Made by a program: the position numbers and the translations under genes
Shown: positions 3,627 through 35,188 of the stretch, piece after piece
Numbering within the stretch: position 1 is the first letter of the stretch
How the letters are laid out: each line of letters begins with the position of its first letter
IMG/VR virus record: IMGVR_UViG_3300023109_001422
Location: 1-37,382 of that record
Length of the DNA stretch: 37,382 nt
Direction: 5' to 3' (one strand)
Source: a virus
The notes under the pieces: generated by a model
What the model was told of the DNA's origin: nothing
Seen by the model: only the letters and a program-made list of their open reading frames with translations
Databases searched by the model: none

Positions 3627-3632
3627 TAAATA
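3625..3632 (+). promoter_or_regulatory. Late-type box GATAAATA, 4 nt before ATG 3637
   Basis: GATAAATA overlaps the end of the terminase gene and lies 4 nt before the next ATG. A late-type start would fall within about one base of that ATG, again predicting a leaderless message. Confidence 0.5.
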
Positions 3633-3636
3633 CAAT

Positions 3637-10670: not shown

Positions 10671-10681
10671 TACTAGTACTT

Positions 10682-10689
10682 AATAAATA
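10682..10689 (+). promoter_or_regulatory. Late-type box AATAAATA, 5 nt before ATG 10695
   Basis: AATAAATA followed by 5 nt and the ATG puts a T4-type late start exactly on the A of the start codon. It implies that the downstream glycan genes are re-expressed late. Confidence 0.5.
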
Positions 10690-10694
10690 CCAGT

Positions 10695-11459
10695 ATGGAT
10701 ACAGTTTTAGTCACCGGCGGCTTTGACCCGCTACACTCCGGACACATAGAGTACTTTAAATCAGCTAAACAATTAGGCGATTGTTTGGTTGTTGGTGTTA
10801 ACTCAGATGAATGGTTAACACGTAAAAAAGGTAGACCATTTATGCCTTTTAGCGAGCGCATGTCTATTATTAAAGAACTATCTTGTGTAGATAAAGTTAT
10901 TGCATTTGACGATAGCGATGATAGTGCTTGCCATGCAATATTTTATACCATGTCAACTAACACAGGTAAAGTTATTTTTGCAAACGGCGGTGATAGAACT
11001 AATACTACAACACCCGAATATACAACATATGGAGATCATCCGCAAGTTGAATTTGCATTCGGAGTAGGCGGTAACAACAAAGCTAATAGCAGTAGTTGGA
11101 TACTCGACGAATGGAAAACACAAAAGACTGAACGTGATTGGGGCTACTGGCGTGTGTTAGATCATAAACCTGAAAAAGGTTATAAAGTAAAAGAACTTGT
11201 AATTTATCCAGGCAAAAGCCTAAGCGATCAAAAACATTTCTTACGATCAGAGCAATGGACTGTACTTGAGGGTACAGTAAAAATGGATACCGAATGGAAT
11301 AATATACAAAGCTGTATAATATTAGAACAACATAGTAGACCATTTGAAATTGGTAAACAAGTATGGCACCGAGCAAGTAACCCAGGTACCGAAAATACTC
11401 ATATACTAGAAGTACAATGGGGTGAACAATGCGTGGAGCAAGATATTGAAAGAAGATAA
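10695..11459 (+). CDS. Nucleotidyltransferase-cupin fusion (TagD/HldE-like plus type II phosphomannose isomerase-like)
   Basis: 254 residues with two domains. Residues 1-130 are a cytidylyltransferase-like fold with GGFDPLHSGH (HxGH active site) and NSSSWIL in the place of the second signature. Residues 140-254 are a cupin resembling the C-terminal isomerase domain of ManC: KELVIYPGKSLSDQKH, RSEQWTVLEGTV, then HR and ILEVQWGE. It could activate a sugar phosphate and isomerise or bind a sugar phosphate for the cassette. The start is the ATG behind a late box, with no Shine-Dalgarno. The GDP-mannose domain of ManC is absent, so substrates are unknown. Confidence 0.75.
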   Translation: MDTVLVTGGFDPLHSGHIEYFKSAKQLGDCLVVGVNSDEWLTRKKGRPFMPFSERMSIIKELSCVDKVIAFDDSDDSACHAIFYTMSTNTGKVIFANGGDRTNTTTPEYTTYGDHPQVEFAFGVGGNNKANSSSWILDEWKTQKTERDWGYWRVLDHKPEKGYKVKELVIYPGKSLSDQKHFLRSEQWTVLEGTVKMDTEWNNIQSCIILEQHSRPFEIGKQVWHRASNPGTENTHILEVQWGEQCVEQDIERR

Positions 11460-13149: not shown

Positions 13150-14065
13150 TTACTATAATGTAGTTCCTAATAAAAACAAAAGCCAAGAAAAATTTGACAT
13201 ACTTACTAAATTTATTCAAGGTGTAAATGCTGCTGGGGACACTGGAATCGTACACAAAGGATACGATTTGCAAAAGTGTGACGTTGGAATGATTCAAGGC
13301 TGGCAACACGAAGTTGGTAAAAATGCACCTCACTTACAATTGCGGCAGCATGTAATGCAACGCACAGAAAATAAACGAGTGTGTACAGCAGATGCAAACT
13401 TATTTCTATATGCAAATAAAACTAATCATCCACATCATTATTTAAGATATAGTTTTGATGGTATCTTCCCAAATACTGGTAATTACTTTGATAATAATCT
13501 TGATCCAAAACGATGGCAACAACTATCAAAGGATTTACAGATACAAATACAAGAAAGACCATTAAAGGGTAAAAATATTGTAATATGTTTACAACGCAAT
13601 AAAGGATGGAGCATGGGAAAACTATCAGTTGTACATTGGCTTGAATCTGTAATATCTAAAATTACAAAATACTCTGACAGGACTATTGTTATTAGACTAC
13701 ACCCGGGAGATAAAAAAGCAATAGTTGACTATCTTCCGTTGCTTTTGCACAAGTATAAATCAAATCCTAAAATAAAAATATCTCCATTCGGAACTCCATT
13801 AGAACAAGATTTAAACAAAGCATGGGCTGTAGTAAATCATAACAGTAGTAGTATTGTTGGGCCTTTGATACAAGGGTATCCCGGGTTTATTACAGATCCC
13901 GAAAGAAGCCAATGTGCAGAAGTTGCACATACTGATTTTAGTATGATTGAAACTCCGCAACAATTTGATCGTCAAAAATGGTTAGAGCGTATTAGTATGT
14001 TCCACTGGAACTTTGACGAGTTGTCAAATGGTACTGCTTGGAAACATATGAGAGATTATGTATAA
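13136..14065 (+). CDS. KpsC/KpsS-like glycosyltransferase, paralogue C
   Basis: 309 residues from ATG 13136 (MKVVSYYNVVPNK), overlapping the previous stop by 14 nt. The N-terminal half is distinct, with a YDLQKCDVGMIQGWQH segment; the C-terminal half carries the family pattern: KNIVICLQRNKGWS, RTIVIRLHPGDKK near residue 190, AWAVVNHNSSSIVGPL, QGYPGFITDPE, and a closing ISMFHWNFDELSNGTAW. RLHP and the NHNSSS/QGYP segments match the donor-binding end of capsule Kdo transferases. Sugar and acceptor are not known. Its last base is shared with the next start codon. Confidence 0.65.
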   Translation: MKVVSYYNVVPNKNKSQEKFDILTKFIQGVNAAGDTGIVHKGYDLQKCDVGMIQGWQHEVGKNAPHLQLRQHVMQRTENKRVCTADANLFLYANKTNHPHHYLRYSFDGIFPNTGNYFDNNLDPKRWQQLSKDLQIQIQERPLKGKNIVICLQRNKGWSMGKLSVVHWLESVISKITKYSDRTIVIRLHPGDKKAIVDYLPLLLHKYKSNPKIKISPFGTPLEQDLNKAWAVVNHNSSSIVGPLIQGYPGFITDPERSQCAEVAHTDFSMIETPQQFDRQKWLERISMFHWNFDELSNGTAWKHMRDYV

Positions 14066-14883
14066 TGGCTGCTAAGTGTGCTGCTATTGATATGAACTCG
14101 TCAAAGTTTACTCGTACTTTTCGATGTGATTTTGCGTTAGAAGCATTTGCAATGGGTATTAATAAACGATTATTACCTGCTTCAGAAGCAGCCTCACGAT
14201 CGTTACCGTTGATAGTAAGAGGAATGTCAGCATCATCAAAGCAATGGATTTATCATGCTAAAGATAACAATTTACCATTTTATTATATCGACTCTGGATA
14301 TTTTGGCAATCAAAAAACTAAAAAATGGCACCGTATTACATATAATGAATTACAAAATACAAGTAAATTTAAACAACGTGACGCAATAAGATTATCTTCA
14401 CAAGTTTGGAATTGGGAAAAAAATGTGTATAAATCATTTACACCAGGAAGTAAAATATTAATTTGTCCTCCTAGCATAAAGGTTATGAATTTTTTTAATC
14501 AGCCTAGTCCGAAATTGTGGACAGAGAACATTATTAAACAAATAAAACAATACACTGATCGACCTATCGAAGTTAGATTAAAACCTAGTAGAACTGATCG
14601 ACAAACTGTTAAAAGTATAAAACATGCATTAGAAGATGATATACATTGTTTGGTAACTTACAATAGTATTGCTGCAACAGAAGCACTGATGATTGGAAAA
14701 CCTGCTATAACACTAGGTCCAAATGCTGCACAATCTATTTGTGAGACAGATCTAAAAAATATAGAAACTCCAAAAATTCCAACTGAATCTAAAATGTATT
14801 CATTTTTAACACACTTGTCATACTGTCAATTTACAGTACAAGAAATGAAAGATGGACTGCCTTGGAATTTTGTAAAACAGTAA
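14065..14883 (+). CDS. KpsC/KpsS-like glycosyltransferase, paralogue D
   Basis: 272 residues, starting at the ATG whose A is the last base of the previous stop (TAATG coupling). It is collinear with the C-terminal part of the fused enzyme at 11446: PLIVRGMSASSK, DSGYFGNQKTKKWHRIT, GSKILICPPS, RPIEVRLKPSRTDRQ, LVTYNSIAATEALMIGKPAITLG, LSYCQF and GLPW. It has no GT-A domain. A free-standing copy beside the fused copy points to duplication, supported by the 29-nt identity. It ends directly against the convergent minus-strand gene. Confidence 0.65.
   Translation: MAAKCAAIDMNSSKFTRTFRCDFALEAFAMGINKRLLPASEAASRSLPLIVRGMSASSKQWIYHAKDNNLPFYYIDSGYFGNQKTKKWHRITYNELQNTSKFKQRDAIRLSSQVWNWEKNVYKSFTPGSKILICPPSIKVMNFFNQPSPKLWTENIIKQIKQYTDRPIEVRLKPSRTDRQTVKSIKHALEDDIHCLVTYNSIAATEALMIGKPAITLGPNAAQSICETDLKNIETPKIPTESKMYSFLTHLSYCQFTVQEMKDGLPWNFVKQ
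14446..14474 (+). repeat. 29-nt exact repeat shared with 12706-12734
   Basis: Second copy of the identical stretch described at 12706; the offset between the copies is 1740 nt. Possible substrate for recombination that would delete the genes between. Confidence 0.85.
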
Positions 14884-15726
14884 TTACTTCCAGTAATCCT
14901 CAGTTCTATTAACCATAATATCAGAAGAACGACTACGCCCTTCTTCTTTACGGACGCCCTTCATATGATCCATCCATTTGCCTAATACGCTATTAATTAA
15001 AGGATGGCCACCTCCGCCTGTACGAGCTTCACGCAAATACATTTCGGCACTATAATCTAAAACAGTTGGAAAGTCTTGCTTCATACGATTAAGTATATTT
15101 CCAAACACATAACTATCATGCCATTCTTCTAACAAAAATATACCGTTCTCGGCTTCTTCGTAAACACGTTCAAATTCTTTAAGAAACTCGTGACATACAG
15201 GATGATTTAAATTCATACCATAGAAGCCACACTCTGGCCAAGTCTGTGAGCCTTTGCCTCGACCAACATATGTAATCCAAGCGTTTTGAGGAAGTAGACG
15301 TTGAAATTCTTTATGGCTCCAATCACTATGAATAAATGTATCGGCATCCATCCATACACACCAGTCCTTAGAACGCTCACAAGCATCATACACTGCATAT
15401 GTTTTATTAGCAAAGCGTATGGCATCCCATTTAAACTTCTTTTGCCAATCACGGGGTCTACGTAATTTAATACTGTCTGGAGGTATGCCGTTTGCTTTTG
15501 GATCGTCTTTCCAACGTTCTTTAAATGCATTTAATTTAGGTAATACTTCTTTAGCATCAAGAACTGTTATTTGTTCCGGATCAGGATTAACTGGATTGCA
15601 GTCTTCTGCATATACTAATAGCTTTATTTTTTTACTAACTCGTTCTGCAAAACTATCTAAGAATCGTTGACCGTATGTGTCTAATCCCGGTTTATGAAAA
15701 GTTGTAACCACTGTTATTGATGTCAT
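14884..15726 (-). CDS. Glycosyltransferase-like protein on the opposite strand
   Basis: 280 residues from the ATG at 15726 (MTSITVVTTFHKPGLD), with AAAGGA as ribosome site; an upstream in-frame ATG would run into the divergent gene and is rejected. WCVWMDADTFIHSD near residue 130 has a DxD motif, followed by WPECGFYGMNLNHP and EEWHDSYVF, which resemble GT-A acceptor regions. It is the only minus gene in the cassette, abutting gene D tail to tail and facing gene E head to head. Strand reversal suggests separate acquisition. A late-type box lies upstream on its own strand. Confidence 0.7.
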   Translation of the reverse strand: MTSITVVTTFHKPGLDTYGQRFLDSFAERVSKKIKLLVYAEDCNPVNPDPEQITVLDAKEVLPKLNAFKERWKDDPKANGIPPDSIKLRRPRDWQKKFKWDAIRFANKTYAVYDACERSKDWCVWMDADTFIHSDWSHKEFQRLLPQNAWITYVGRGKGSQTWPECGFYGMNLNHPVCHEFLKEFERVYEEAENGIFLLEEWHDSYVFGNILNRMKQDFPTVLDYSAEMYLREARTGGGGHPLINSVLGKWMDHMKGVRKEEGRSRSSDIMVNRTEDYWK

Positions 15727-15738
15727 AGTGTTCCTTTT

Positions 15739-15746
15739 GTTAAATA
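15739..15746 (+). promoter_or_regulatory. Late-type box GTTAAATA, rightward, for paralogue E
   Basis: Together with the inverse copy at 15758-15765 it forms a perfect 8-bp inverted repeat with an 11-nt centre. The predicted start at about 15752 gives a 16-nt leader carrying GGAG before ATG 15768. Confidence 0.45.
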
Positions 15747-15757
15747 TGTATATGGAG

Positions 15758-15765
15758 TATTTAAC
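15758..15765 (-). promoter_or_regulatory. Late-type box GTTAAATA, leftward, for the minus-strand glycosyltransferase
   Basis: Mirror image of the box at 15739. The predicted leftward start also falls near 15752, giving a leader of about 26 nt with AAAGGA before the ATG at 15726. The two promoters face each other across 11 nt. Confidence 0.45.
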
Positions 15766-15767
15766 CA

Positions 15768-16646
15768 ATGATTTTTTGTCTATACACTGATTATGGCGCA
15801 CTAAACAGCAAACCAGTATTTGAAGCATTTGCAAAAAGTCTGCTCGACGCCGGACATACTGTAATATATAACGAGCCATATAGAGTTGGCGGACACTACG
15901 ATAATTATGACGTTGCTGTTATCTGGAGCGTATTATGGCACGGAAGAATGGCTAAGAACAAGACTATCTGGGAACAGAATCGCATGTTAAATAAACCTGT
16001 TATAGTATTAGAAGTAGGCGGAATAAAAAGAGGAACAACATGGAAGGTAGGGTTAAATGGTATCAATCGTGATGGATATTTTCATATGGGGAATAATAAT
16101 TCTCTTCGTAGTGAGTCTTTGGCCCTGGCGATAAAACCGTGGCGCACCGACGGAGAATATATTCTTATATGCGGTCAGCACGACAAAAGTTTACAATGGC
16201 AAGATATGCCTAGTATGAGTAACTGGTTCTTAAGTACCTATGATAAAATACGTAAGCACACTAGTCGACCTATACTATTTCGCGCTCATCCGCGATGTAA
16301 TTTACCAGAAATAGAAAGAGGATTAAAAAATGTTTATAGACAACAACCTAGACAACTGCCAGGCACCTATGACGATTATGATATGGGTTTTAACAATGTA
16401 TGGGCCACTATAAGTTATAATAGTAACCCGGGCATACATAGTATCATAAACGGCGTTCCAGCGTTTGTAGGTACCAGCTCGTTAGCGTATGACGTTGGTA
16501 ACGATATTAATTGCTTACAAGATATAGAACAACCGCATATGGGTGCAAGGCAATCTTGGCTCAACAACTATGCACATACCGAACATACTATAGAAGAAAT
16601 ATCACAAGGCATCCCACTTAAACACTTGACTTCTAAGTTATTCTAA
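15768..16646 (+). CDS. KpsC/KpsS-like glycosyltransferase, paralogue E
   Basis: 292 residues. N-terminus MIFCLYTDYGALNSKPVFEA begins a GT-B-like Rossmann domain. Family features follow: IKPWRTDGEYILICGQHDK near residue 125, TSRPILFRAHPRC near residue 165, VWATISYNSNPGIHS near residue 210, NGVPAFVG, and the ending WLNNYAHTEHTIEEISQGIPL. It most resembles paralogue A (both have KPWRT.G.YIL). Donor and acceptor are not known. GGAG lies 10 nt before the ATG. The next gene's promoter begins inside its 3' end. Confidence 0.65.
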   Translation: MIFCLYTDYGALNSKPVFEAFAKSLLDAGHTVIYNEPYRVGGHYDNYDVAVIWSVLWHGRMAKNKTIWEQNRMLNKPVIVLEVGGIKRGTTWKVGLNGINRDGYFHMGNNNSLRSESLALAIKPWRTDGEYILICGQHDKSLQWQDMPSMSNWFLSTYDKIRKHTSRPILFRAHPRCNLPEIERGLKNVYRQQPRQLPGTYDDYDMGFNNVWATISYNSNPGIHSIINGVPAFVGTSSLAYDVGNDINCLQDIEQPHMGARQSWLNNYAHTEHTIEEISQGIPLKHLTSKLF

Positions 16647-20843: not shown

Positions 20844-21452
20844 ATGTTTAAAAACATCGATAAGAAAATGATGCTAAAACTTGCACTATTGCATGTTGTA
20901 GTAATCACAGTAAGTAACGCACTAGTTGCAATACCAGTAGAAGTTGCTGGTTATAAATTAACATGGGCGGCGTTTACGTTCCCAATTGTTATTCTAGCAA
21001 CTGACTTAACAGTTAGAATGTTAGGTAAGAACATTGCTCGAGCAACAATTGCTATGGCATATCCAATTGCAATTATTACAAGTATTGCAGTTGTACTAGC
21101 AGAAGGTGCACCAGAATCAGTAGCACTACGTATTGGCTTTGCATCAGCAACAGCATATGCAGTAGGTACGTTTATTGACGTATATGTGTTCCAAACAATT
21201 AGAGAACGTATGAGTGTATGGTGGTTAGCACCGGCACTATCAACTGTAGTTGCAAATGTAATTGACAGTTATACATTCTTTGCAGTAGCGTTTAATAACT
21301 CAGCAGATGAGTATATGGCTGCTAACTGGATAGAAATTGCAGGCTCACAGGCTGTACTAAAGATTGCAGTAGGATTAATTATCTTCCTACCAGCATATGG
21401 ATTGTTACTACGTTACATCAAAGGACGTACAAATGACACAGAAGCAGGGTAA
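20844..21452 (+). CDS. YhhQ-type queuosine-precursor transporter (VUT family)
   Basis: 202 residues with about six hydrophobic segments (LALLHVVVITVSNALVAIP, FTFPIVILATDL, IAMAYPIAIITSIAVVLA, then three more), ending in a basic tail. TFPIVILATDLTVRMLG is the family's signature near residue 47. Escherichia coli YhhQ imports preQ0/preQ1. Phages with 7-deazaguanine-modified DNA sometimes carry it. No other preQ0 or DNA-insertion gene (dpdA, queC, queD, queE) is visible here, so the precursor could feed host tRNA or DNA modification coded outside the window. The 3' end overlaps the next gene by 20 nt. Confidence 0.85.
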   Translation: MFKNIDKKMMLKLALLHVVVITVSNALVAIPVEVAGYKLTWAAFTFPIVILATDLTVRMLGKNIARATIAMAYPIAIITSIAVVLAEGAPESVALRIGFASATAYAVGTFIDVYVFQTIRERMSVWWLAPALSTVVANVIDSYTFFAVAFNNSADEYMAANWIEIAGSQAVLKIAVGLIIFLPAYGLLLRYIKGRTNDTEAG

Positions 21453-21702: not shown

Positions 21703-22028
21703 AATACAGTGAATGGGATATAGGCGGTGACGTAGTTAAACATGACAATCGTTATATTGTTAAAGATAATACTATATTAAAAAATCTAGTTGTAAGCAGT
21801 ACAATGTTGTCAGCTCATAAAAGTACAACAGGACATAGACATGCTGGACAAGAAGAAGTGTATATGTTTGTTAGTGGTAGTGGTCAGATGGAACTTGATC
21901 ATAAACTAATTGATGTTACAGCCGGCGATACTGTGCTAATTGAAGACAACGTATTCCACAAAGTACATAATAATACAGACTTTGGATTAAAATTTATTTG
22001 CGTATTTGACGGAGGAAGAAAACAATGA
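21699..22028 (+). CDS. Cupin protein next to kdsA
   Basis: 109 residues, one cupin domain: TTGHRHAGQEEVYMFVSGSG carries motif 1 (H-x-H...E) near residue 45 and AGDTVLIEDNVFHKVHN motif 2 near residue 77. The type is like small mannose-6-phosphate isomerase-related cupins. It overlaps the preceding gene and kdsA by 4 nt each, so the three are translationally coupled. A step in supply of arabinose-5-phosphate for Kdo is conceivable since kdsD is absent, but this is speculation from location. Confidence 0.75.
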   Translation: MKYSEWDIGGDVVKHDNRYIVKDNTILKNLVVSSTMLSAHKSTTGHRHAGQEEVYMFVSGSGQMELDHKLIDVTAGDTVLIEDNVFHKVHNNTDFGLKFICVFDGGRKQ

Positions 22029-22804
22029 GAATTATAGCAGGCCCGTGTCAACACGAATCATTGCCACAAAGTTTAGAAATTGCTCGCGAGTGTAAACGTG
22101 TATGCGACAACTACGGAATAGAATATATATTCAAAGCAAGTTACGACAAAGCTAATCGTTCAAGTATGCAGGGCAAGCGTGGCATAGGCATGGAAGAGAC
22201 ACTAACTGACTTCCTTGCACTAAAAGTAGAACTAGGTGTAAAGACACTTACTGATGTACACGACTATGTACAAGTTTCTCGTATTGAAAGGGAATTTAAA
22301 GACGCTGTTGACGTCTATCAAATTCCTGCATTCTTATGTAGACAGACTGACTTAATCAAAGCAGCCTGTGCCACAGATAAAATTGTTAATATTAAAAAAG
22401 GACAGTTCATGGCACCCTGGGATATGAAAGGTGTGCTAAGTAAAACTGAAGGCGCTAAAGACGTCTGGATAACAGAAAGGGGAACAAGTTTTGGTTACAA
22501 CACTCTTGTCGTTGACTATACTGGTCTTATGTATATGCTCGACACTTATGAACATCCTATTGTTTTTGATTGTACGCACTCTGCCCAAAAACCCGGGGGA
22601 CAAGGTGATAGCTCAGGTGGCAATCGTGATTACGTGCCTGGGTTGGCTCGTAGTGGGGCTGCTCTTGGGATCAGAAACTTTTTCTTGGAAGTCCATCCTA
22701 ACCCTGATGTAGCACCAAGCGATGGTCCTAATATGCTACGCTTAGAAGATTTTGAACAGGTAGTAAAAGACATTGTAACCTACAGTTATGGTTGGGATGA
22801 ATGA
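22025..22804 (+). CDS. kdsA: 3-deoxy-8-phosphooctulonate (Kdo-8-P) synthase
   Basis: 259 residues, near the usual ~280. Condenses phosphoenolpyruvate with arabinose-5-phosphate to give Kdo-8-phosphate. Visible signatures: IAGPC at the start, FKASYDKANRSS (residues 37-48), KTLTDVH, YQIPAFLCRQTDL, NIKKGQFMAPWDM, DCTHSAQKPGG and EVHPNPDVAPSDGP. Cys8, a His in CTHS, Glu in FLEVHP and Asp in APSD match the ligands of the metal-dependent class (Aquifex type) rather than the Asn-containing Escherichia coli class. Active-site loops are all present, so it should be functional. Coupled to kdsB by a 4-nt overlap. Confidence 0.93.
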   Translation: MRIIAGPCQHESLPQSLEIARECKRVCDNYGIEYIFKASYDKANRSSMQGKRGIGMEETLTDFLALKVELGVKTLTDVHDYVQVSRIEREFKDAVDVYQIPAFLCRQTDLIKAACATDKIVNIKKGQFMAPWDMKGVLSKTEGAKDVWITERGTSFGYNTLVVDYTGLMYMLDTYEHPIVFDCTHSAQKPGGQGDSSGGNRDYVPGLARSGAALGIRNFFLEVHPNPDVAPSDGPNMLRLEDFEQVVKDIVTYSYGWDE

Positions 22805-23481
22805 AAACAGCAATACTAATCCCTGCACGTTACAATAGCACACGCTTGCCCGGCAAGCCACTAGCTATGTTAGATGGTATCCCTATGATAAAACGTGTGT
22901 ATGACGCTTGTGTTGCGTCTAATCTACCTACATACGTACTAACTGACGATGTACGTATTGCTAGTGTATTTCAAAATACAAGTGTTATTATAGACGACAC
23001 AGACTATGCAAACGGTACTGAAAGATGTGCTGGTGCAATCAAACTAGACTATATGCAAAAGTATGATCACTTCATAAACGTGCAAGGAGACATGCCTGAT
23101 GTAACTACAGATATTATTAATACTTGTTCTAAGTTATTACAATATTATACAGTTTCAACAGTATACACAAAGATGCCTCTTTGTATGCAAGAAGATCCTA
23201 ACACAGTAAAATGTGTACATGCAAGCGAACATGCACTTTGGTTTGGTAGAGGAATTACAGGATACGGTAGTTGGCATTTAGGTATATATGGTTACAAACG
23301 CCATGCACTAGAAATGTATAGCAATCTAGTAGTACCAAAAGAAGAAACAATTGAGCAACTAGAACAACTTAGATGGTTAAAAAACTCTTGGCAAATAGGA
23401 ATAAATCCTGTATACTATAATGGAGTAGAGATAAATTCACCAGAGGATGTAGAGACATGGCATATCAAGAATTCCCAGTAA
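22801..23481 (+). CDS. kdsB: CMP-Kdo synthetase (3-deoxy-manno-octulosonate cytidylyltransferase)
   Basis: 226 residues; Escherichia coli KdsB is 248. Activates Kdo with CTP to CMP-Kdo, the donor for Kdo transferases. Signatures: IPARYNSTRLPGKPL (residues 7-21, CTP loop), NVQGDMP near residue 98 (metal Asp; the usual form is GDEP), WHLGIYGYKR near residue 159, EQLEQLRWL and NSPEDVE near the end. The GDMP change leaves the Asp intact. kdsC and kdsD are not in the window, so the Kdo-8-P phosphatase and arabinose-5-P isomerase would come from the host or from elsewhere on the phage. Overlaps the following gene by 25 nt. Confidence 0.92.
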   Translation: MKTAILIPARYNSTRLPGKPLAMLDGIPMIKRVYDACVASNLPTYVLTDDVRIASVFQNTSVIIDDTDYANGTERCAGAIKLDYMQKYDHFINVQGDMPDVTTDIINTCSKLLQYYTVSTVYTKMPLCMQEDPNTVKCVHASEHALWFGRGITGYGSWHLGIYGYKRHALEMYSNLVVPKEETIEQLEQLRWLKNSWQIGINPVYYNGVEINSPEDVETWHIKNSQ

Positions 23482-24597: not shown

Positions 24598-25185
24598 ATG
24601 ATGTTATTAGAAAACTGGTTCGCTACTCCAATTTATTATAATGAAACTAACAATTTTGATAATCTACAAAAAGAGATTGAAGATTGTTATTCTAAATTAA
24701 AGTTATCTAAAAACTCATACTGGGGTAAACAAAACCATTCTTTAAGTGATCCAACCTTTGAAGAAAATATTATTAACAAATATAATTTAAAAATTCTTAA
24801 AAATGAAATTATAAATCATACAACAGCTTACACTCAATGCTTTAGTCAAACAAATTTTGATGTTGACATTGCTGAATGTTGGATCACTAATACAGCACCA
24901 AAAGAACATACAGTAGTTCATAGTCACGGTTACTATGATATATCAGGTTCCTACTATTTTAAAACTAACAGTAATGACGGAAGCATTTATTTCTTAAATC
25001 CTAATATAGCTTCAATGACATCATTGTTTTTAAAACAATACGATCATGTAGAATATCCGCCTACAATGGGTAAAATAATTTTATTTCCAAGTTGGTTATA
25101 TCATGGTGTAAGATCAAACGATACTGATAGCGATAGAATTAGTGTTTCATTTAATATAAAACTTAAAGAGAAAATAAATGCCTGA
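24598..25185 (+). CDS. 2OG-Fe(II) oxygenase of the TIGR02466 type
   Basis: 195 residues. ENWFATPIYY at the N-terminus, IAECWITNTAPKEHT, HSHGYYDISGSYYF near residue 107 (iron-binding H..D), then IILFPSWLYHGVRSN near residue 160 (distal His) and RISVSFNIK with the Arg for 2-oxoglutarate. This family of putative hydroxylases is frequent in marine T4-like phages. Second oxygenase in the window, not closely related to the one at 19367. ATG 24601 is an alternative start. Ends overlapping the next gene by 8 nt. Confidence 0.8.
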   Translation: MMLLENWFATPIYYNETNNFDNLQKEIEDCYSKLKLSKNSYWGKQNHSLSDPTFEENIINKYNLKILKNEIINHTTAYTQCFSQTNFDVDIAECWITNTAPKEHTVVHSHGYYDISGSYYFKTNSNDGSIYFLNPNIASMTSLFLKQYDHVEYPPTMGKIILFPSWLYHGVRSNDTDSDRISVSFNIKLKEKINA

Positions 25186-25738
25186 TATTGATATAGACTT
25201 CGCTGATAGAGATATTGTATTATCTACACTTAAACATCGTGTTGCAAAATTAGATAGTGGCAAGAAACACAATACAGGAGTGTATGCAACTGAGGTTCCA
25301 CATAACCCTGTAGATAATATAAGCACTATCGAACATAAGACTGCGGAAGAACGCGGCTACTTCAAACTAGACTTCTTAAACGTAAGCATCTATAAAGATG
25401 TTGAATCAGAAAAACACTTAACAGAATTAATGGAAAGGACGCCATTATGGCAACTACTGGAACACAAAGACTTCGTCGACAAAGTATTTCATCTAAGCGG
25501 ACACGACAGTCTATTAAAACAATTGAAGCCTACTTCGGTACAGCAATTGGCGGCCACACTGGCAATAATACGTCCAGCGAAGCGATACTTAGCAAACGAA
25601 AGCTGGGAAAAGATAATGGACGAGGTTTGGGTGAAACCAACAAACGGTGATTACTTCTTTAAGAAAGCACACGCATTTGCTTACGCAATGAGTGTTATAG
25701 TACATATGAATTTATTGTGTGACGATCTTAATTCTTAG
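25178..25738 (+). CDS. Miniature DnaE-like (DNA polymerase III alpha active-site) protein
   Basis: 186 residues. Landmarks of bacterial DnaE (about 1160 residues) appear in the correct order but with intervening parts missing: MPDIDIDFADR (two catalytic Asp), KHNTGVYATEVP, GYFKLDFLNV (the third catalytic Asp position), LLKQLKPTSVQQLAATLAII, and FFKKAHAFAYAMSVI near the end. The PHP, thumb, beta-binding and OB parts are absent. All three catalytic Asp positions seem kept, so it is not simply decayed. It could be a minimal polymerase-like enzyme, a regulator of the host polymerase, or a repurposed fold. Overlaps the convergent gene by 11 nt. Confidence 0.65.
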   Translation: MPDIDIDFADRDIVLSTLKHRVAKLDSGKKHNTGVYATEVPHNPVDNISTIEHKTAEERGYFKLDFLNVSIYKDVESEKHLTELMERTPLWQLLEHKDFVDKVFHLSGHDSLLKQLKPTSVQQLAATLAIIRPAKRYLANESWEKIMDEVWVKPTNGDYFFKKAHAFAYAMSVIVHMNLLCDDLNS

Positions 25739-26099: not shown

Positions 26100-26107
26100 A
26101 TGTTTCC

Positions 26108-26115
26108 GATAAATA
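26108..26115 (+). promoter_or_regulatory. Late-type box GATAAATA, 5 nt before ATG 26121
   Basis: GATAAATA-N5-ATG in a 21-nt divergent intergenic gap. Late-type start would be the A of the ATG, so the virion-like gene should be leaderless. Confidence 0.55.
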
Positions 26116-26120
26116 GTTGT

Positions 26121-26903
26121 ATGCAAACTTTAAGGTATTTAGTATCAAACAGAACAGAGGTCCTCGCAAATGAAGCAGGACACGTCACGGAGTATAGACC
26201 AGTGTATAGCAGAAACTTACAAGTGTATAAAGGCATTGATAATGTCTTAGAATTTAAATTAATTAATCCAGATCAGAAACCATTAGATGTAGATAGATAC
26301 ACACCTAAGTTTGTTGCATTTGATGAGAACAAACAAATGGTTATTGAACGTGACGGCGTCAACTTACAAGAAGGTGATAGTACTGCATATACTAAAAAAG
26401 GTCTGTTTAGTGTTACTGTTACTGAAAATGATTTACTAAATGTAAAAGATCAATATCTATCTTACAATATCTATCTAGTAGATTATGACGATACTAAAGT
26501 ATTAACATATGCTAATGAATGGTTTGACAGCGCAGGAGTTATTAGAGTAAGTAGTAGTGCATTTCCAGGGCCAATAGATAGTAAGGTAGTTGATACCTTT
26601 GTAATGGACAACGATGTTTGGTATTCAGAAACCATTGAAGCTCAGCCCGGAATAAACGGTAATGAGGCTTTACACACTGCGGCAGTATACACTGATTCGT
26701 ACATTGGCGATGTTGTTGTACAAGGAACATTAGAAAATCAAATAACCGGTACAACTAATTGGGCTGATGTTAGCACAACAACACTAACTGGTAACGAAAC
26801 TGGACCTACGCCTATAAACTTTAACGGTGTGTTTACATACATACGTTTTAAAACAACAGCCAATCCAAACAGCACAGTACCTAAAATATTAGTTAGAAAT
26901 TAG
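26121..26903 (+). CDS. Probable virion structural protein
   Basis: 260 residues, beta-rich, starting MQTLRYLVSNRTEVLANEAG. Residues 1-140 resemble a baseplate/fibre-type beta domain (EYRPVYSRNLQVYKGIDNV, EFKLINPDQKPLD, TPKFVAFDENKQ), followed by a second beta-sandwich-like domain (VVQGTLENQITGTTNWADV, FTYIRFKTTANPN). No enzyme motif. A similar architecture is common among small structural proteins of T4-like marine phages; the late box supports a virion role. It is followed closely by the TonB receptor promoter. Confidence 0.7.
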   Translation: MQTLRYLVSNRTEVLANEAGHVTEYRPVYSRNLQVYKGIDNVLEFKLINPDQKPLDVDRYTPKFVAFDENKQMVIERDGVNLQEGDSTAYTKKGLFSVTVTENDLLNVKDQYLSYNIYLVDYDDTKVLTYANEWFDSAGVIRVSSSAFPGPIDSKVVDTFVMDNDVWYSETIEAQPGINGNEALHTAAVYTDSYIGDVVVQGTLENQITGTTNWADVSTTTLTGNETGPTPINFNGVFTYIRFKTTANPNSTVPKILVRN

Positions 26904-26904
26904 G

Positions 26905-26933
26905 TTGACAACGTAATATAATTACGTTATAAT
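26905..26933 (+). promoter_or_regulatory. Perfect sigma-70 promoter with palindromic spacer, N6-ATG
   Basis: TTGACA (26905-26910), 17 nt, TATAAT (26928-26933). The spacer with one extra base on each side (26910-26928) reads AACGTAAT-ATA-ATTACGTT, an 8-bp inverted repeat around 3 nt, the geometry of a dimeric repressor operator between -35 and -10. Six nt after the -10 comes the ATG at 26940, so the predicted start is the first base of the start codon. Confidence 0.85.
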
Positions 26934-26939
26934 AAGTGC

Positions 26940-28673
26940 ATGAAAAATAAAAATAACTTAATTGCCGCTTTCTGTGCGGCTTTTTTAATGACCCCAGTAT
27001 ATGCAACAGAGCTTGTAATTTATGTATATGCTGATAGAACCCCTTCAATTATTGCTAGTAATACATATTCCTATGACATAGTTGAAACTGATGAGCTAGA
27101 GGATATATCAAGTCTTGATATATTATCAAGCGGACCAAAAGGACAAATGAGCTCCTTGTTTATAAGAGGCGCAGATAGTGATCAAAGCCTTATAACCCTT
27201 AATGGTATTGCTATTAAAGACCATAGTAGCCCAACAGGTACAGACGATCTTGGGCAACACAACTTTACAGGTATAGATGTTGTCGAAGTATACAAAGGCC
27301 CAATGAGTAGTTTGTATGGAGCAAATGCAGCCGGAGGTGTAGTTAATCTAGTATCAGATGTAACAAGCAGATCCTATATAGGTTCCACAATAGGAAATAA
27401 TAATTCAGTTGCAGTAGAAACACAATTATCTGGAAAAGTAAAAAACTTAGATTACACTCTTACTATTGACGGCGAACGCACAGACGGTATTAGTGTATAC
27501 CCAGACGGTGAAGAAACAGATCCATACGAAAATAAAAATATAAATCTTAACTTATTGTATCACACCGATTATAGTAATTACAGACTTATACACATAGACG
27601 AAACTAATTATTCAAATTTAGATTCGCAAGGTGATACCCTTGAGTATACAGGTGATTGGAATTGGACTAATACACAGTTAGATTATAATAACGAAACAGT
27701 TCGTGTAACACTCAACAATTCAAATCATAGGAGAATATATACTAAAGGTAGATGGCTTGAAGGAGACTACGATAGTACAGTGAACACGCTATATGCTTCT
27801 AAACTTATTAAAGTTGATAACAATGATATAATCGTAGGTACAGAAGTTGAAAAGATAGATGCAGATTTCTTATTAGACACTGGAGGAGTTTTTCCTTACT
27901 ACAGTAGTGTAGATAAAAAACGTACTACCAAAGGTATATTTGTAAATAATAATTCTGTTGTTAACGGTACTGTTCTTTCATATGGTGTTCGACACGATGC
28001 CATTGACGGCTTTGGAGAAAAGGACACTGGTAGAATTGGAATAGCTAATAACGGTATAAGAGCTAGTGTATCATCTGGATACAGAGTTCCGACACTATAC
28101 GAAATGTACGGAAAAGATAATTACGGGTTCAATGGCAATCCTAACTTACTAGAAGAAGATACTATAAGTTATGAAATTGGATTTAGAAATAGTTTTATAG
28201 ATACAGCAATATTTCTTACTAAAGAAGATAATGCAATCATATACAACGGCACGTATGTAAATGACTCAGGGCGTAGTTACACTAAAGGCCTTGAAGGTAA
28301 AACTACACACGAACTAAGCGGTGTATATATAGAAAATAATATATCTATTATAGATGCTAGGCAGTCCAATGGAGAACGAAAACTAAGACGACCTAATGTT
28401 ACTAATAAATTAAAACTATCTAAAATAATAGATGAAATTGTTTATTCCTTTGATGTCGACTATTACGGCAAGCACAAAGACATAGATAGTATCACATACC
28501 AAACAATTGATGTAGATGCCCTTGTAACTTACAATGCAGAAATAGACTATAAGAAAAATGATTGGAATGTATTTTTGGGGATATATAACATTAGTAATGA
28601 AAAATATCAAAGACCAAACGGTTACAGTCAATTAGGACGTAATGCTGAAGTTGGCTTTAGGAAGTACTTTTAA
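26940..28673 (+). CDS. TonB-dependent outer-membrane receptor (BtuB-like)
   Basis: 577 residues, a full-length outer-membrane receptor. A signal peptide (AAFCAAFLMTPVYA) ends near residue 22; TELVIYVYADR just after it fits a TonB box. The plug domain contains SLFIRGADSDQSLITLNG, VVEVYKGPMSSLYGANAAGGVVNL (a BtuB-like plug signature) near residue 110. The remaining ~420 residues have the alternating pattern of beta strands of a 22-strand barrel and end in FRKYF, an aromatic C-terminus used for outer-membrane insertion. It takes up a ligand such as cobalamin or iron chelates when TonB energises it; the ligand is unknown. Rarely carried by a phage as far as I know. Confidence 0.9.
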   Translation: MKNKNNLIAAFCAAFLMTPVYATELVIYVYADRTPSIIASNTYSYDIVETDELEDISSLDILSSGPKGQMSSLFIRGADSDQSLITLNGIAIKDHSSPTGTDDLGQHNFTGIDVVEVYKGPMSSLYGANAAGGVVNLVSDVTSRSYIGSTIGNNNSVAVETQLSGKVKNLDYTLTIDGERTDGISVYPDGEETDPYENKNINLNLLYHTDYSNYRLIHIDETNYSNLDSQGDTLEYTGDWNWTNTQLDYNNETVRVTLNNSNHRRIYTKGRWLEGDYDSTVNTLYASKLIKVDNNDIIVGTEVEKIDADFLLDTGGVFPYYSSVDKKRTTKGIFVNNNSVVNGTVLSYGVRHDAIDGFGEKDTGRIGIANNGIRASVSSGYRVPTLYEMYGKDNYGFNGNPNLLEEDTISYEIGFRNSFIDTAIFLTKEDNAIIYNGTYVNDSGRSYTKGLEGKTTHELSGVYIENNISIIDARQSNGERKLRRPNVTNKLKLSKIIDEIVYSFDVDYYGKHKDIDSITYQTIDVDALVTYNAEIDYKKNDWNVFLGIYNISNEKYQRPNGYSQLGRNAEVGFRKYF

Positions 28674-28798
28674 TGAAAGAACTATTTAAACAACCGTCCG
28701 TTTGGGCGGCTTTACTGTTAGTATCACCTTTGCTGTATATATTATTGTATAGGCTTGGCCTAGAACTTTGGTGTATTGCATACGGATTAATATATTAA
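28673..28798 (+). CDS. 41-residue membrane peptide coupled to the TonB receptor
   Basis: The start ATG shares the last base of the receptor stop (TAATG). Product: MKELFKQPSVWAALLLVSPL, one transmembrane stretch (residues 11-26), then RLGLELWCIAYGLIY, also hydrophobic. A basic start followed by one or two inner-membrane helices fits a small membrane protein. Function unknown; tight coupling suggests it works with or regulates the receptor. Too short to be certain by composition, but the overlap makes it likely to be real. Confidence 0.55.
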   Translation: MKELFKQPSVWAALLLVSPLLYILLYRLGLELWCIAYGLIY

Positions 28799-28804
28799 AA
28801 ACTC

Positions 28805-28833
28805 TTGACTTAACTGCAAAGCGGCTGTATAAT
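28805..28833 (+). promoter_or_regulatory. Sigma-70 promoter TTGACT-N17-TATAAT of the primase gene, N6-ATG
   Basis: TTGACT (28805-28810), 17 nt, TATAAT (28828-28833), then six nt to ATG 28840. Predicted start is the A of the ATG. Only the last base of the -35 departs from consensus. Confidence 0.82.
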
Positions 28834-28839
28834 AATACT

Positions 28840-29823
28840 ATGAGTGTAGTAAGCGAAACAGTTCTGACATATATACCGTCTAAGCGTAAACAAACGCCTA
28901 GTGGTTGGCTGTCCTTTAACGCACCGTGTTGTCATAACAATGGTAACAGTGCAGACACTCGAGGACGTGGCGGCTTAATAAGCAACCCCGATGGAGGCGT
29001 AAGTTATCATTGTTTCAACTGCGGCTTCAAGGCATCCTGGCAACCGGGCAGGAACTTCTCACATAAACTGCGTAAACTCCTACAATGGATGGGAGCACCT
29101 GACGATATAATCAACAAGGTAGCACTAGAGGTTATGAGAGAAAATGAAGGAGTTGAAGCTAAAACACAAATAGCCCAACTACCAACTTTCAATACTGTCC
29201 CGTTGCCAGATGATGCTATTAAGATTACAGACATAACAGACTTCAACAAGTATAGTATGTCAGTACTTGAATACATGGCCTCACGTAATTTAAACACAGA
29301 TGATACAGACTATTACTGGAGCCCTAGTCTAGGGTATCGTGATAGATTGATCATACCCTTCTACTTTGAAGGCAGGGTAGTAGGTTGGACTGGACGTACA
29401 GTGAACCCGGACAAGAAGCCCAAGTACTTAACTGAGGTACAACCTGGATACGTATACGGACTAGACGAACAGGGTCATGCTAAAGTGTTTGCTATTGTGT
29501 GCGAAGGTCAACTAGATGCTATACACGTAGAAGGTACGGCACTGGGAGGGTCTGAGATAAGTGATCAACAAGCAATGTTACTCAACAGACTACAGAAACA
29601 AATAATTGTTGTTCCTGACAGAGACCAAGCAGGTAGTAAACTAGTAGAGCAAGCTATCGAGCTAGGCTGGAGCGTGAGTATGCCTGAATGGCCTGCTGGC
29701 TTAGATGACATAGGTGATGTAGTAAACAAACACGGACGTCTATATGCACTACACAGTATTGCAAGTAGTGCTAATGATAGTCCACTTAAAATAAGATTGC
29801 GAGCAAAGAAATGGTTCGATTGA
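28840..29823 (+). CDS. DNA primase, gp61-type
   Basis: 327 residues; T4 gp61 has 342. Makes RNA primers on the lagging strand with the helicase coded next. An N-terminal zinc-binding module has CCHNN near residue 28 and CFNCGF near residue 58. The TOPRIM-type catalytic part has VCEGQLDAIHV near residue 220 (Glu) and IVVPDRDQAG near residue 260 (DxD), typical of DnaG-like enzymes. ATG 28840 is chosen over an upstream in-frame ATG at 28768 because the promoter lies between them; no Shine-Dalgarno is needed if leaderless. Followed by a small overlapping gene and the helicase. Confidence 0.92.
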   Translation: MSVVSETVLTYIPSKRKQTPSGWLSFNAPCCHNNGNSADTRGRGGLISNPDGGVSYHCFNCGFKASWQPGRNFSHKLRKLLQWMGAPDDIINKVALEVMRENEGVEAKTQIAQLPTFNTVPLPDDAIKITDITDFNKYSMSVLEYMASRNLNTDDTDYYWSPSLGYRDRLIIPFYFEGRVVGWTGRTVNPDKKPKYLTEVQPGYVYGLDEQGHAKVFAIVCEGQLDAIHVEGTALGGSEISDQQAMLLNRLQKQIIVVPDRDQAGSKLVEQAIELGWSVSMPEWPAGLDDIGDVVNKHGRLYALHSIASSANDSPLKIRLRAKKWFD

Positions 29824-29957
29824 TCACTTTACTTTTTGTAATAACTGTGCTATACTTAGCAGTAACTAAAAAAGAAATCGAACAAGAGCCGCTTGGGTTT
29901 GCCCCGAGCATAATTACAATAGAAGAACTAGAACCGAGGGTATTTGATGACAACTAG
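29811..29957 (+). CDS. 48-residue membrane-anchored peptide between primase and helicase
   Basis: An open frame from ATG 29811 to a TAG at 29955, overlapping the primase end by 13 nt and the helicase start by 11 nt. The product has one N-terminal transmembrane helix (LITLLFVITVLYLAV) and a polar, acidic tail (KKEIEQEPLGFAPSIITIEE). The 123-nt gap between primase and helicase otherwise would be empty, unusual here. No function is known. The chain of overlaps suggests translational coupling. Confidence 0.55.
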   Translation: MVRLITLLFVITVLYLAVTKKEIEQEPLGFAPSIITIEELEPRVFDDN

Positions 29958-31386
29958 ACAAAACACAGACTACGGATATGATATACAAAAAGTATATCTT
30001 GAAATGATGTTGTCTGATGCTGAGAGCTTTGTACGCTGTCAAGCGGTGTTTGATCCAGGTAGCTTTGATAGACGTTTGAAAGCACCAGCAGAGTTTTTAA
30101 ACAACTATGTTATGGAACACAATGCATTACCTACGTTTGATATGATTAATGCAGCAACTGATATTAATTTAAAAGATCCAGGCGAACTACAAGAGAATCA
30201 TTATGATTGGTTAATGCAAGAGTTTGAAACGTTTAGTAAACACAAAGCATTAGAAGCAGCAATCCTAAAGAGTGCTGACTTGTTAGAGAATGGTGACTAT
30301 GGACAGTGCGAGGACTTAGTCAAGAAGGCTGTACAGATAGGTCTACAAAAAGACTTGGGTACAAACTACTTTGCTGATCCAAGAGCAAGGCTAGAAGGCA
30401 TCAAGAGTACAAACGGACAGGTAAGCACAGGCTGGCCAGCAATGGACAAGAAACTATTTGGTGGCTTCAACAGAGGCGAGCTGAATATCTTTGCAGGTGG
30501 TTCAGGTGCAGGTAAGAGTTTGTTCCTTGCTAACATTGGTGTTAACATGGCCGAGAAAGGATTGAACGTGATCTACTTGACACTAGAGCTTGCAGAGAGT
30601 CTAGTTAGTATGAGACTTGATTCAATGACTACAGGTATTCCAAGTCGTGATGTGTTTAAGAGCATTGACGATGTTGAGATGAAAGTCAAGATGATTGGCA
30701 AGAAGTCAGGTGCATTCCAAGTCAAGTATATGCCTAGTGGCAAGACAGCAAATGATGTACGTAGTTACATTAAAGAATATGAAATTAAAACAGGCAAGAA
30801 GGTAGACGTATTACTGATTGACTACTTGGACTTGTTGATGCCAGCAAGCACAAAGGTAAGTGCAGAGAACTTGTTTATCAAAGACAAGTACGTAAGTGAA
30901 GAACTACGTAACCTAGCAATGGAATTGAACACAGTGTTTGTTACAGCGGCACAGTTGAATCGTGGTGCTGTAGAAGAGATTGAATTTGATCACTCGCACA
31001 TATCAGGTGGACTTTCAAAGATACAAACAGCAGACAACGTGTTTGGTATCTTTACAAGTAGAGCAATGCGTGAACGTGGACGCTATCAGTTACAGTTGAT
31101 GAAGACACGTAACTCGTCAGGCGTAGGACAAAAGATTGATCTAGGCTTTGACATAGACACACTGCGTATTGTTGACATCGGTGATGAAGATGATGACGGA
31201 TACTCAAGTGCGCCACAAGGAGGAGGTTCTAATATACTAGCATCACTCAAACGTGGCACAGGAACAACCACACCCGAAGACAGTATAAGTGATGATCCTG
31301 CTGAAGGCTCAGGCGTTGGCAAGATAAGAGCTCAAACAGATTCAACTAAGTTGAGAGACTTTCTCAACAACCTAGACGACGAATAA
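29947..31386 (+). CDS. Replicative DNA helicase, gp41-type (DnaB family)
   Basis: 479 residues; T4 gp41 has 475. Hexameric 5'-3' helicase of the replication fork. Start ATG 29947 rather than TTG 29944. An N-terminal helical domain (residues 1-150) precedes the RecA-like motor: Walker A GGSGAGKS near residue 184, VIYLTLELAES near residue 213 (H1a), Walker B VDVLLIDYLDLL near residue 285, VFVTAAQLNRGAV near residue 332 (motif H3), and KTRNSSGVGQKIDLGFD (motif H4) near residue 385. The C-terminal tail is acidic. It is coded right behind the primase, so the primosome pair is one unit. Confidence 0.95.
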   Translation: MTTRQNTDYGYDIQKVYLEMMLSDAESFVRCQAVFDPGSFDRRLKAPAEFLNNYVMEHNALPTFDMINAATDINLKDPGELQENHYDWLMQEFETFSKHKALEAAILKSADLLENGDYGQCEDLVKKAVQIGLQKDLGTNYFADPRARLEGIKSTNGQVSTGWPAMDKKLFGGFNRGELNIFAGGSGAGKSLFLANIGVNMAEKGLNVIYLTLELAESLVSMRLDSMTTGIPSRDVFKSIDDVEMKVKMIGKKSGAFQVKYMPSGKTANDVRSYIKEYEIKTGKKVDVLLIDYLDLLMPASTKVSAENLFIKDKYVSEELRNLAMELNTVFVTAAQLNRGAVEEIEFDHSHISGGLSKIQTADNVFGIFTSRAMRERGRYQLQLMKTRNSSGVGQKIDLGFDIDTLRIVDIGDEDDDGYSSAPQGGGSNILASLKRGTGTTTPEDSISDDPAEGSGVGKIRAQTDSTKLRDFLNNLDDE

Positions 31387-34162: not shown

Positions 34163-34209
34163 ACACTGTGACTGCTCTCGAGGGCATTAAGAGCGTTTCA
34201 TCACAGTGT
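34163..34209 (-). other. Inverted repeat around the stop codon of the AAA+ ATPase gene
   Basis: ACACTGTGA (34163-34171) pairs with TCACAGTGT (34201-34209), with inner GCTCT/AGAGC (34174-34178 with 34190-34194). The stop codon (34187-34189) lies in the inner loop. It could slow ribosomes, stabilise the message or serve as a protein site. Confidence 0.6.
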
Positions 34210-35188
34210 TCTCTGCCATAGCTTCCCAACGTTGTGGAAAGGCTACTGCGAGATCTGCTACCTTTAGTACTGTACGCAATGACAGTTCACGTAGTCTCTT
34301 TTTATTAATATCGACAAAGTCAATTATCTCTGCTTTGACATCGTCGTCTAGTTTGTACTGATCAAGCATACCATCTTTGATAACTTGTGCAATACGTAAC
34401 ATCTTGTCACGTTCTGTTGAGATCGTCAAGTCCATATAGTGGCAACGACTCTCTAGTGCTTCCAAGTGCGAGCGTAATTTCTTGCTCTTGATATCCTGGA
34501 AGTTCAAGTTGGTAATAAAGATCGCGCTACCTTTGAACTCAAAGCTGTCTGGCACACCTTCATTACGTAGTTTGAAACTGTCTGTGTTCCAATGGATTGT
34601 ACGCTTCTTCTTAGAGTCTAATGCAGCTTTTAAAATATTAAGCGCCAATGGCTCTTCGAATATAGCATCACAGTCATCAAACACTAGTACTGAATCTTTG
34701 TCTGCGTAGTTGAACAGTTTACAGTACAAGCCAATTGGACTCATAGCACCTTTGACAACTTCATACTTCTTGCCAGCACCTAGATGCTCTAGTGTGTCAT
34801 AGCGTTCAAGAACTTCTTCGACACCATGTGACTTACCTACACCTGGAGGACCTGATACGATCATAGCTCGCACAGCACCCTTCTTGACTGCTTTGGTCAT
34901 GTCCTTCAACATGTCAAAACGTTCACGGATACGATCAATAACTTCTTCGTCTGACTCCTCTACAACTGCAATCTTCTTGTTGCCGGCTGCACGGTATGCA
35001 TCTGCTGAGTCGCACATGATCTTGATGTTGCGATCTGGAAAGCCATTAACTGCTGTGCCGTCTACTGTTACGTAGCCACCTCTGGCGCCTACTTTGAATT
35101 CTTCTACGAGTGGAAAGGTCATACCTGATAGATCAACATCTTTGCCTCTGATCTTGTAAGTGCCTTCTTGGATAGTAATGTTTTGCAT
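34187..35188 (-). CDS. AAA+ ATPase
   Basis: 333 residues. The N-terminal ~100 residues are a separate beta-rich domain followed by a basic-acidic helix (EEVIDRIRERFDMLKDMT). The AAA+ core has Walker A VSGPPGVGKS near residue 112, Walker B SVLVFDDCDAIF near residue 165, a sensor-1-like AIFITNLN near residue 222 and a Sensor 2-like helical end (KKRLRELSLRTVLKVADLA). A motor of this kind in phages may remodel host or phage complexes; sequence does not tell the target. It has its own early promoter, a structured 3' end and a strong terminator. CobS/MoxR-like ATPases are alternatives for the subfamily. Confidence 0.85.
   Translation of the reverse strand: MQNITIQEGTYKIRGKDVDLSGMTFPLVEEFKVGARGGYVTVDGTAVNGFPDRNIKIMCDSADAYRAAGNKKIAVVEESDEEVIDRIRERFDMLKDMTKAVKKGAVRAMIVSGPPGVGKSHGVEEVLERYDTLEHLGAGKKYEVVKGAMSPIGLYCKLFNYADKDSVLVFDDCDAIFEEPLALNILKAALDSKKKRTIHWNTDSFKLRNEGVPDSFEFKGSAIFITNLNFQDIKSKKLRSHLEALESRCHYMDLTISTERDKMLRIAQVIKDGMLDQYKLDDDVKAEIIDFVDINKKRLRELSLRTVLKVADLAVAFPQRWEAMAENTVMKRS

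Follow-up and report, generated by a model that had tools for sequence, protein, structure and literature searches.

The gene at positions 26940–28673 (+ strand) of the window – as we call the whole 37,382 bp of DNA analysed here, a fragment deposited as an IMG/VR virus record – is confirmed as a complete, phage-carried TonB-dependent receptor of the BtuB type. Far from being the isolated oddity as which it was first handled, it belongs to a family: a search of viral sequences, as proposed in the first-pass annotation, found conserved homologues on about 70 further viral contigs in IMG/VR. The best explanation for this receptor, and one that we think probably correct, is that it forms the outer-membrane part of a phage cassette for the import of vitamin B12 (cobalamin or another corrinoid) that makes use of the host's TonB. 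For the receptor family the evidence pointing to B12 is strong; for the receptor of the window the same role is suggested by homology within the clade, since the window has neither a riboswitch nor a DUF6580 gene of its own. What is new here is a viral branch within the BtuB-type receptors, together with its operon setting. The phage itself, a marine one, is probably large, as the fragment carries a jumbo-phage-like terminase, virion proteins, a primase and a DnaB-type helicase; the terminase is of the T4 type and has its closest matches (53%) in jumbo phages, Pseudomonas phage PA5oct among them.

Evidence for the nature of the receptor came firstly from the protein itself. The reading frame comprises 577 codons and has no internal stop. 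As read from the sequence, the N-terminus, MKNKNNLIAAFCAAFLMTPVYA followed by TELVIYVYA, has the basic n-region, hydrophobic core and VYA cleavage motif of a signal peptide (residues 1–22); a TonB-box-like segment, ELVIYVYA (residues 24–31), comes directly after the predicted signal peptide and aligns with DTLVVTA of BtuB; and the protein terminates in GFRKYF, the last residue being Phe. Signal peptide, TonB box and aromatic C-terminal residue are all kept across the receptor family. The plug, which extends to about residue 140, is recognised by Pfam (PF07715, E 3.8e-14, 53.5 bits against a cut-off of 23.9), while the Pfam barrel model PF00593 finds no match in the receptor and the region after the plug is without any Pfam match. 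Comparison with BtuB by phmmer gives a full-length match (residues 51–568 of 577, E 1e-18). An AlphaFold model, based on the window protein and 35 relatives, comprises the plug and, beyond residue 145, 22 long strands that define a 22-strand barrel at about residues 146–577 (pLDDT 87, pTM 0.87), and the best 12 folds retrieved with this model from the PDB are BtuB without exception (TM about 0.82, E down to 8e-33). A profile of the receptor family scores 249 bits against BtuB in the PDB and 139 bits against the next receptor, Cir. Whether judged by single sequence, by profile or by fold, BtuB is clearly the nearest solved protein to the window receptor. The signal peptide, TonB box, BtuB-like plug and aromatic C-terminus originally claimed for this 577-residue gene are thus all present, and structure prediction, suggested at the same time as a check, returned the expected barrel and plug.

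We nonetheless call the protein BtuB-like, rather than filing it as BtuB, because its best NCBIfam family, the B12-receptor equivalog TIGR01779, is matched at 148.8 bits against a curated cut-off of 599.7. With BtuB of E. coli (PDB 1NQH, 2GSK) it has in common the TonB box, the plug and the 22-strand barrel, but the two proteins are only about 21–25% identical, and the phage plug is about 12 residues short in the conserved sVndvLrrlPGV segment – a segment better retained in the deepest phage branch. The phage receptor differs also in being phage-borne and paired with a microprotein or DUF6580, and in having, in the window, no riboswitch. A finer comparison is afforded by the positions at which BtuB contacts B12 in published simulations, namely plug residues 65–67, 72–74 and 90–98 together with R497, Y579, D528, Y402 and Y446 (PMC7360065). 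Every one of the 31 phage proteins has Q62, S65, G92, D95, Y402, Y446, R497, D528 and Y579 (BtuB numbering) unchanged; Leu stands in place of Y229, N276 has not been retained and the calcium site is kept in part only. Judged by alignment, the B12-contacting positions of BtuB appear to be largely preserved in the phage receptors.

The place of these proteins among receptors at large is equally distinctive. Our scan of IMG/VR produced 78 receptor loci, to which deep members added more, on contigs of up to 328 kb. No member of the clade was found in 50,697 deposited phage records; the matches that did occur there are BtuB genes on contigs that were filed as phages but are, or seem to be, bacterial. 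Chromosomal-looking btuB genes were noted in phage-collection records H1–H4, including Salmonella AFYI01000005 and AGRM01000004 and the 254-kb Acinetobacter phage MD-2021a. Phage-specific patterns retrieved no cellular relatives, and in a search of GTDB with a mixed alignment the best cellular receptors among the matches listed were, over long matches, 22–27% identical. Only one of those matches departs from this, L103 (PACV01000025.1): it is a phage contig binned in a Flavobacteriaceae MAG, and its proteins are 95–100% identical to those of viral contigs L069 and L073. In a tree of 60 receptors, 31 phage proteins make up one fully supported group, with L266 apart on a long branch. The phage receptors are thus a monophyletic, virus-only clade of about 70 loci that has no close cellular relative among the matches listed. 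Phylogeny had been proposed as a means of identifying the host donor: it resolved the viral clade, but as regards a donor it leads to cellular relatives that are, among the matches listed, at most 27% identical.

In 11 of 12 receptor pairs dN/dS lies between 0.06 and 0.19, and for the pair formed by the window and L024 it is 0.30 – low values from which it follows that purifying selection has kept the proteins functional. The window and L024 are 96–99% identical in nucleotide sequence to about codon 430, except for one 48-codon block at 92%; over the last 145 codons, which encode barrel and loops, identity is 67–77%, and the drop is a sign of recombination inside the barrel. The virus-only clade, a dN/dS well below 1 and the empty sites in sister phages described below are, taken together, the marks of a viral auxiliary metabolic gene.

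Upstream of the receptor gene is a sigma70-type promoter, TTGACA-N17-TATAAT (26905–26933, + strand), which matches the consensus at 12 of 12 positions. The ATG is just 6 nt downstream of the -10 hexamer, so the transcript is probably leaderless; and as the TTGACA-17-TATAAT promoter with its near ATG recurs upstream of the receptor gene in 10 relatives, early and probably leaderless expression seems likely. The first-pass annotation had the gene expressed from an early-type promoter: the promoter, of host sigma70 type, is there and recurs in relatives, while expression itself is a prediction. It is only the perfect match and its conservation that carry weight, because the number of promoters counted in the window (15) is not above the number expected by chance (15.2). 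The spacer of the promoter is filled by a perfect palindrome, ACGTAAT-ATA-ATTACGT (26911–26927), visible on inspection and GTAATnnnATTAC-like in most close relatives of the window; it is a candidate operator and possibly a repressor site. Within the signal-peptide codons, at 26964–26980, a terminator-like hairpin followed by a T-run overlaps a weak, sub-threshold Trp_leader match (E 0.13), which was all that the riboswitch search of the window returned. The hairpin could conceivably serve as an attenuator; it is probably a product of chance.

Central to the argument is the company that the receptor keeps. At 70 of 72 loci it lies directly beside a gene for one of two proteins of inner-membrane type, DUF6580 or a microprotein, and the remaining two loci are cut by the contig end. 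DUF6580 (PF20221, E down to 4e-44) is the partner at 43 loci; a membrane microprotein of 36–41 aa is the partner at 27 viral loci, among them the window, from which DUF6580 is absent. The window's microprotein (28673–28798, + strand; 41 aa, MKELFKQPSVWAALLLVSPLLYILLYRLGLELWCIAYGLIY) was overlooked in the first reading; it is coupled to the receptor, its ATG overlapping the receptor stop (TAATG). Proteins of this type share the signature LYKLGLELWCIAYGLIY and have one hydrophobic segment each, and searches of Pfam and NCBIfam gave no match. Among the contigs tested DUF6580 and the microprotein never occur together on one contig. The partner type has switched at least three times on the receptor tree, and the AU test speaks against the microprotein type having arisen only once (p 9e-11). 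Such repeated swapping at one position suggests that DUF6580 and the microprotein may do equivalent jobs.

As to what that job might be, the predicted fold of DUF6580 looks like the S-component of an ECF transporter. ECF S-components occupy ranks 1, 2, 3 and 6 when the model is compared with PDB folds (prob 0.72–0.97, TM 0.44–0.62), with E-values of 0.36–1.9 that are below formal significance; the resemblance to 4huq_S, for instance, has a prob of 0.97 and a TM of about 0.6, again with an E-value that is not significant. The only match of a DUF6580 profile in the PDB, likewise non-significant (E 0.4), is CbrT, the B12 S-component of an ECF transporter (6FNP, PMC5997447). In the openly accessible literature we found neither a description of DUF6580 function nor any mention of the domain. 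The domain is present in 59 of 148 Bacteroidota genomes sampled versus 2 of 249 from Pseudomonadota.

A connection to B12 is drawn from riboswitches. Of the nearest cellular receptor loci tested, 12 of 14 have a cobalamin riboswitch. Among 40 Bacteroidota neighbourhoods of DUF6580 the cobalamin riboswitch was present in 10 of the 10 in which a BtuB-like receptor is adjacent and in 0 of the 30 others. A scan of DUF6580 neighbourhoods of ±1.5 kb had found no riboswitch, because so short a span does not reach the operon start; it was in wider neighbourhoods that riboswitches appeared. In Pedobacter (L116) riboswitch, BtuB, DUF6580 and a BtuF-like protein are consecutive. Bacteroidota btuB–DUF6580(–btuF) operons such as this one have adjacent the same two protein families as the phages, but they are cellular, their receptors are at most 27% identical, and their riboswitch is RF00174, whereas that of the phages is AdoCbl-II (RF01689). 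The latter was found in two phage loci, L090 and L360, scoring 78 and 81 bits where the cut-off is 36.5; it is placed between DUF6580 and the receptor, just upstream of an AAGGAG Shine-Dalgarno sequence, and the receptors of the two loci are 62% identical. RF01689 scores of 11–15 bits in other contigs were dismissed as noise. Neither a phage BtuB-type receptor nor a phage cobalamin riboswitch was found in the openly accessible literature. A glutamine riboswitch (RF01739), a class described for Melnitz-like marine phages (PMC9004378), is situated upstream of the receptor-bearing phage locus L040 (5411–5458).

Three functions had been entertained for the receptor at the outset – replacement of the host receptor, blocking of further phages, and increased uptake of cobalamin or metal. 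Raised cobalamin uptake is the best supported of these, by evidence that goes beyond the first-pass annotation: the DUF6580 partners, the cobalamin riboswitches at homologous cellular operons and the AdoCbl-II riboswitch in two phages. Early transcription from the host-type promoter would be followed by export of the receptor and its insertion in the outer membrane, where it would bind a scarce corrinoid and pass it to the periplasm, powered by the TonB–ExbBD of the host (the window encodes no TonB–ExbBD genes). In most relatives the adjacent DUF6580 may then move the substrate across the inner membrane, either by itself or together with energising subunits of the host; in the window's branch the 41-aa membrane protein would stand in place of the DUF6580 gene. 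The additional B12 could serve B12 enzymes of the host or, in some relatives, B12-binding radical SAM enzymes of the phage. A corrinoid substrate here, transport, the use of TonB, the roles of DUF6580 and the microprotein, and the benefit to infection are all things that we infer.

Possible consumers of B12 were sought on the phage contigs themselves. Beside the receptor of one clade, in convergent orientation, lies a B12-binding radical SAM gene, and such genes occur on 11 of 50 receptor-bearing contigs versus 1 of 36 sister contigs (nearly all receptor-free). This excess is suggestive, the two sets differing in lineage and the lineage of the window having none: no B12-dependent phage enzyme was found in that lineage, the 37 kb of the window included. 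At the Pfam cut-off, B12-binding radical SAM-like proteins of about 480–770 aa (L183–L188, G022, G023, G025–G027, G033, G035, G047 and G052) are carried by nine receptor-bearing phage contigs. A link to B12-dependent class II ribonucleotide reductase was rejected, as the four ribonucleotide reductases found are class I (nrdA/nrdB); the simplest use of B12 is therefore ruled out for the four contigs in which such an enzyme was seen. The AAA protein at 34187–35188 was considered as CobS and rejected, family searches (Pfam, NCBIfam) giving no support. Several observations count against a B12 cassette: the absence of riboswitch and DUF6580 from the window, the lack of a B12-dependent enzyme in its lineage, the class I reductases, the missed TIGR01779 cut-off, the replacement of Y229, the non-retention of N276 and the only partial calcium site, the non-significant S-component fold match, and the existence of two DUF6580 genes without a receptor (in L238 and L244), which means that the link between the two is not absolute.

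Vitamin B12 is limiting for much of the marine plankton, and auxotrophs obtain it by way of BtuB-type receptors. If the B12 reading is true, a widespread viral receptor family with partner proteins and a B12 switch of its own would imply that phages alter how the vitamin is acquired in the course of infection, and that cells under infection are competitors for B12. More tentatively, many uncultivated marine phages may possess a complete two-membrane B12 module – a BtuB-type receptor plus DUF6580 as inner-membrane transporter, in some under an AdoCbl riboswitch – in which DUF6580 and the microprotein of 36–41 aa have been exchanged repeatedly in several lineages, that of the window included, with the microprotein either carrying out the step of DUF6580 or licensing it. 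Should this be so, B12 transport would be assigned to DUF6580 in bacteria too; a testable function is offered for DUF6580 and for a conserved phage microprotein. Among systems already described is the TonB-dependent receptor 'SusC' of the marine megaphage Mar_Mega_1, for which sugar uptake was suggested (PMC9723777). It too is phage-encoded, and a marine-phage 'SusC' is the only strong match to our receptor among predicted viral structures, but the 'SusC' model has 805 aa, is 12% identical to the window receptor and belongs to a different family. Cyanophages carry cobS-type 'cobalamin' genes (PMC9301287), also cobalamin-linked; these are annotated as biosynthesis, whereas it is uptake that is proposed here.

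The alternative that survives best, although we judge it unlikely, is superinfection exclusion or replacement of the host receptor: the phage protein would crowd out, mimic or compete with that receptor, be it BtuB or another TonB-dependent protein, for space or for TonB, and later phages or colicin-like toxins would be blocked, perhaps with the microprotein helping to obstruct the machinery of the host. Phages commonly use BtuB-type proteins as receptors, and FhuA–phage T5 complexes are among the fold matches; the early-type promoter, the mosaic last 145 codons of the window and L024, and the KDO-synthesis genes of the window lineage, which could remodel the cell surface, all count in favour of exclusion. 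A decoy, however, needs no intact plug, TonB-box-like segment or conserved ligand contacts maintained by purifying selection, and the control by a B12 riboswitch in two phages, along with the link to DUF6580, favours transport. As proteins of the BtuB type also serve phages as receptors, the question of nutrition versus exclusion can be put directly to test with the receptor gene.

Also unlikely, and next in order, is the import of a different scarce ligand – heme, a siderophore, or another cofactor or precursor – the likeness to BtuB reflecting ancestry only. The identity of 21–25% and the missed equivalog cut-off would fit such a substrate, as would the iron requirement of the class I ribonucleotide reductase and several Fe(II)-oxygenases of these phages, and the lack of both DUF6580 and riboswitch in the window's branch. 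But BtuB is clearly the nearest relative by sequence and fold, relatives of the same clade are under AdoCbl-II control, and R497, Y579, Q62, S65 and D95, which contact B12, are invariant. A role in the virion or in lysis, the barrel being packaged or permeabilising the outer membrane late with the microprotein as a holin-like partner, strikes us as very improbable: a virion gene is indeed the neighbour and a small membrane protein adjoins, but the receptor has its own early-type promoter, an intact plug and, in relatives, B12-type regulation, and its site adjoins replication genes in the window lineage and lies elsewhere in others.

That the gene is host DNA, an assembly chimera or part of a mis-binned contig – the one circumstance named at the outset as fatal to a phage origin – is scarcely credible and was rejected: such receptors are normally cellular and several of the public "phage" records are really bacterial contigs, but at least 10 independent IMG/VR contigs have the junctions in common, GC around the gene matches that of the phage flanks, sister phages show empty sites, and the clade is virus-only, its one close "cellular" match (L103) being a phage contig in a MAG. 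The gene is truly phage-borne. It also lies where it had been said to lie, between virion and replication genes. The left border of the insertion site is a gene for a virion structural protein (26100–26903, + strand; PHROG 14467, E 6.5e-10); the right border is a DNA primase gene (28840–29823, + strand; PHROG 47, E 7e-41), its start being set at the ATG after a promoter at 28805–28833, and beyond it is a DnaB-type replicative helicase (29944–31386, + strand; PF03796, E 2e-20; PHROG 19, E 2e-69). The order virion gene, receptor, primase, helicase holds in the seven contigs first found (L001–L006 and L018), as far as the contigs reach, and phage genes surround it there.

Sister phages were represented by 80 contigs with a related primase, of which 77 have enough upstream sequence. 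The receptor is missing upstream of the primase in 72 of the 77; most of the 72 have the virion gene abutting the primase start, which leaves an empty site. The other five have receptor and microprotein at the virion–primase site; four are from the window's receptor clade, and the fifth, L266, has at the same insertion site a far-diverged receptor of 467 aa (3478–4881) followed by a microprotein of the same type (4856–4969). L238 and L244 (4136–4974 in each) have DUF6580 together with a 120-aa secreted protein at the virion–primase site, without a TonB receptor. The variety of occupants, alongside the empty sites, marks this locus as an insertion hotspot.

Other genes of the window deserve mention. 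At 20844–21452 there is a queuosine-precursor/VUT-type vitamin transporter (PF02592, TIGR00697), a second gene for a transporter of vitamin-uptake type in this phage. NCBIfam matches at 22025–23481 and 10695–11459 denote a KDO-8-phosphate synthase, a KdsB-like CMP-KDO transferase and an HldE/GMP-PMI-like protein; a run of glycosyltransferase-like reading frames, mostly without a Pfam match, adjoins the KDO genes (8547–16646), and the KDO gene pair is conserved in L001–L006 and L018. From their annotation, these KDO and glycosyltransferase-like genes might possibly take part in remodelling surface polysaccharide. Finally, a stand-alone, fragment-sized piece of 186 aa (25178–25738) matches DNA-polymerase PHROG 11778 (E 5e-58), and this DNA-polymerase-like gene is kept in nearly all sister phages.
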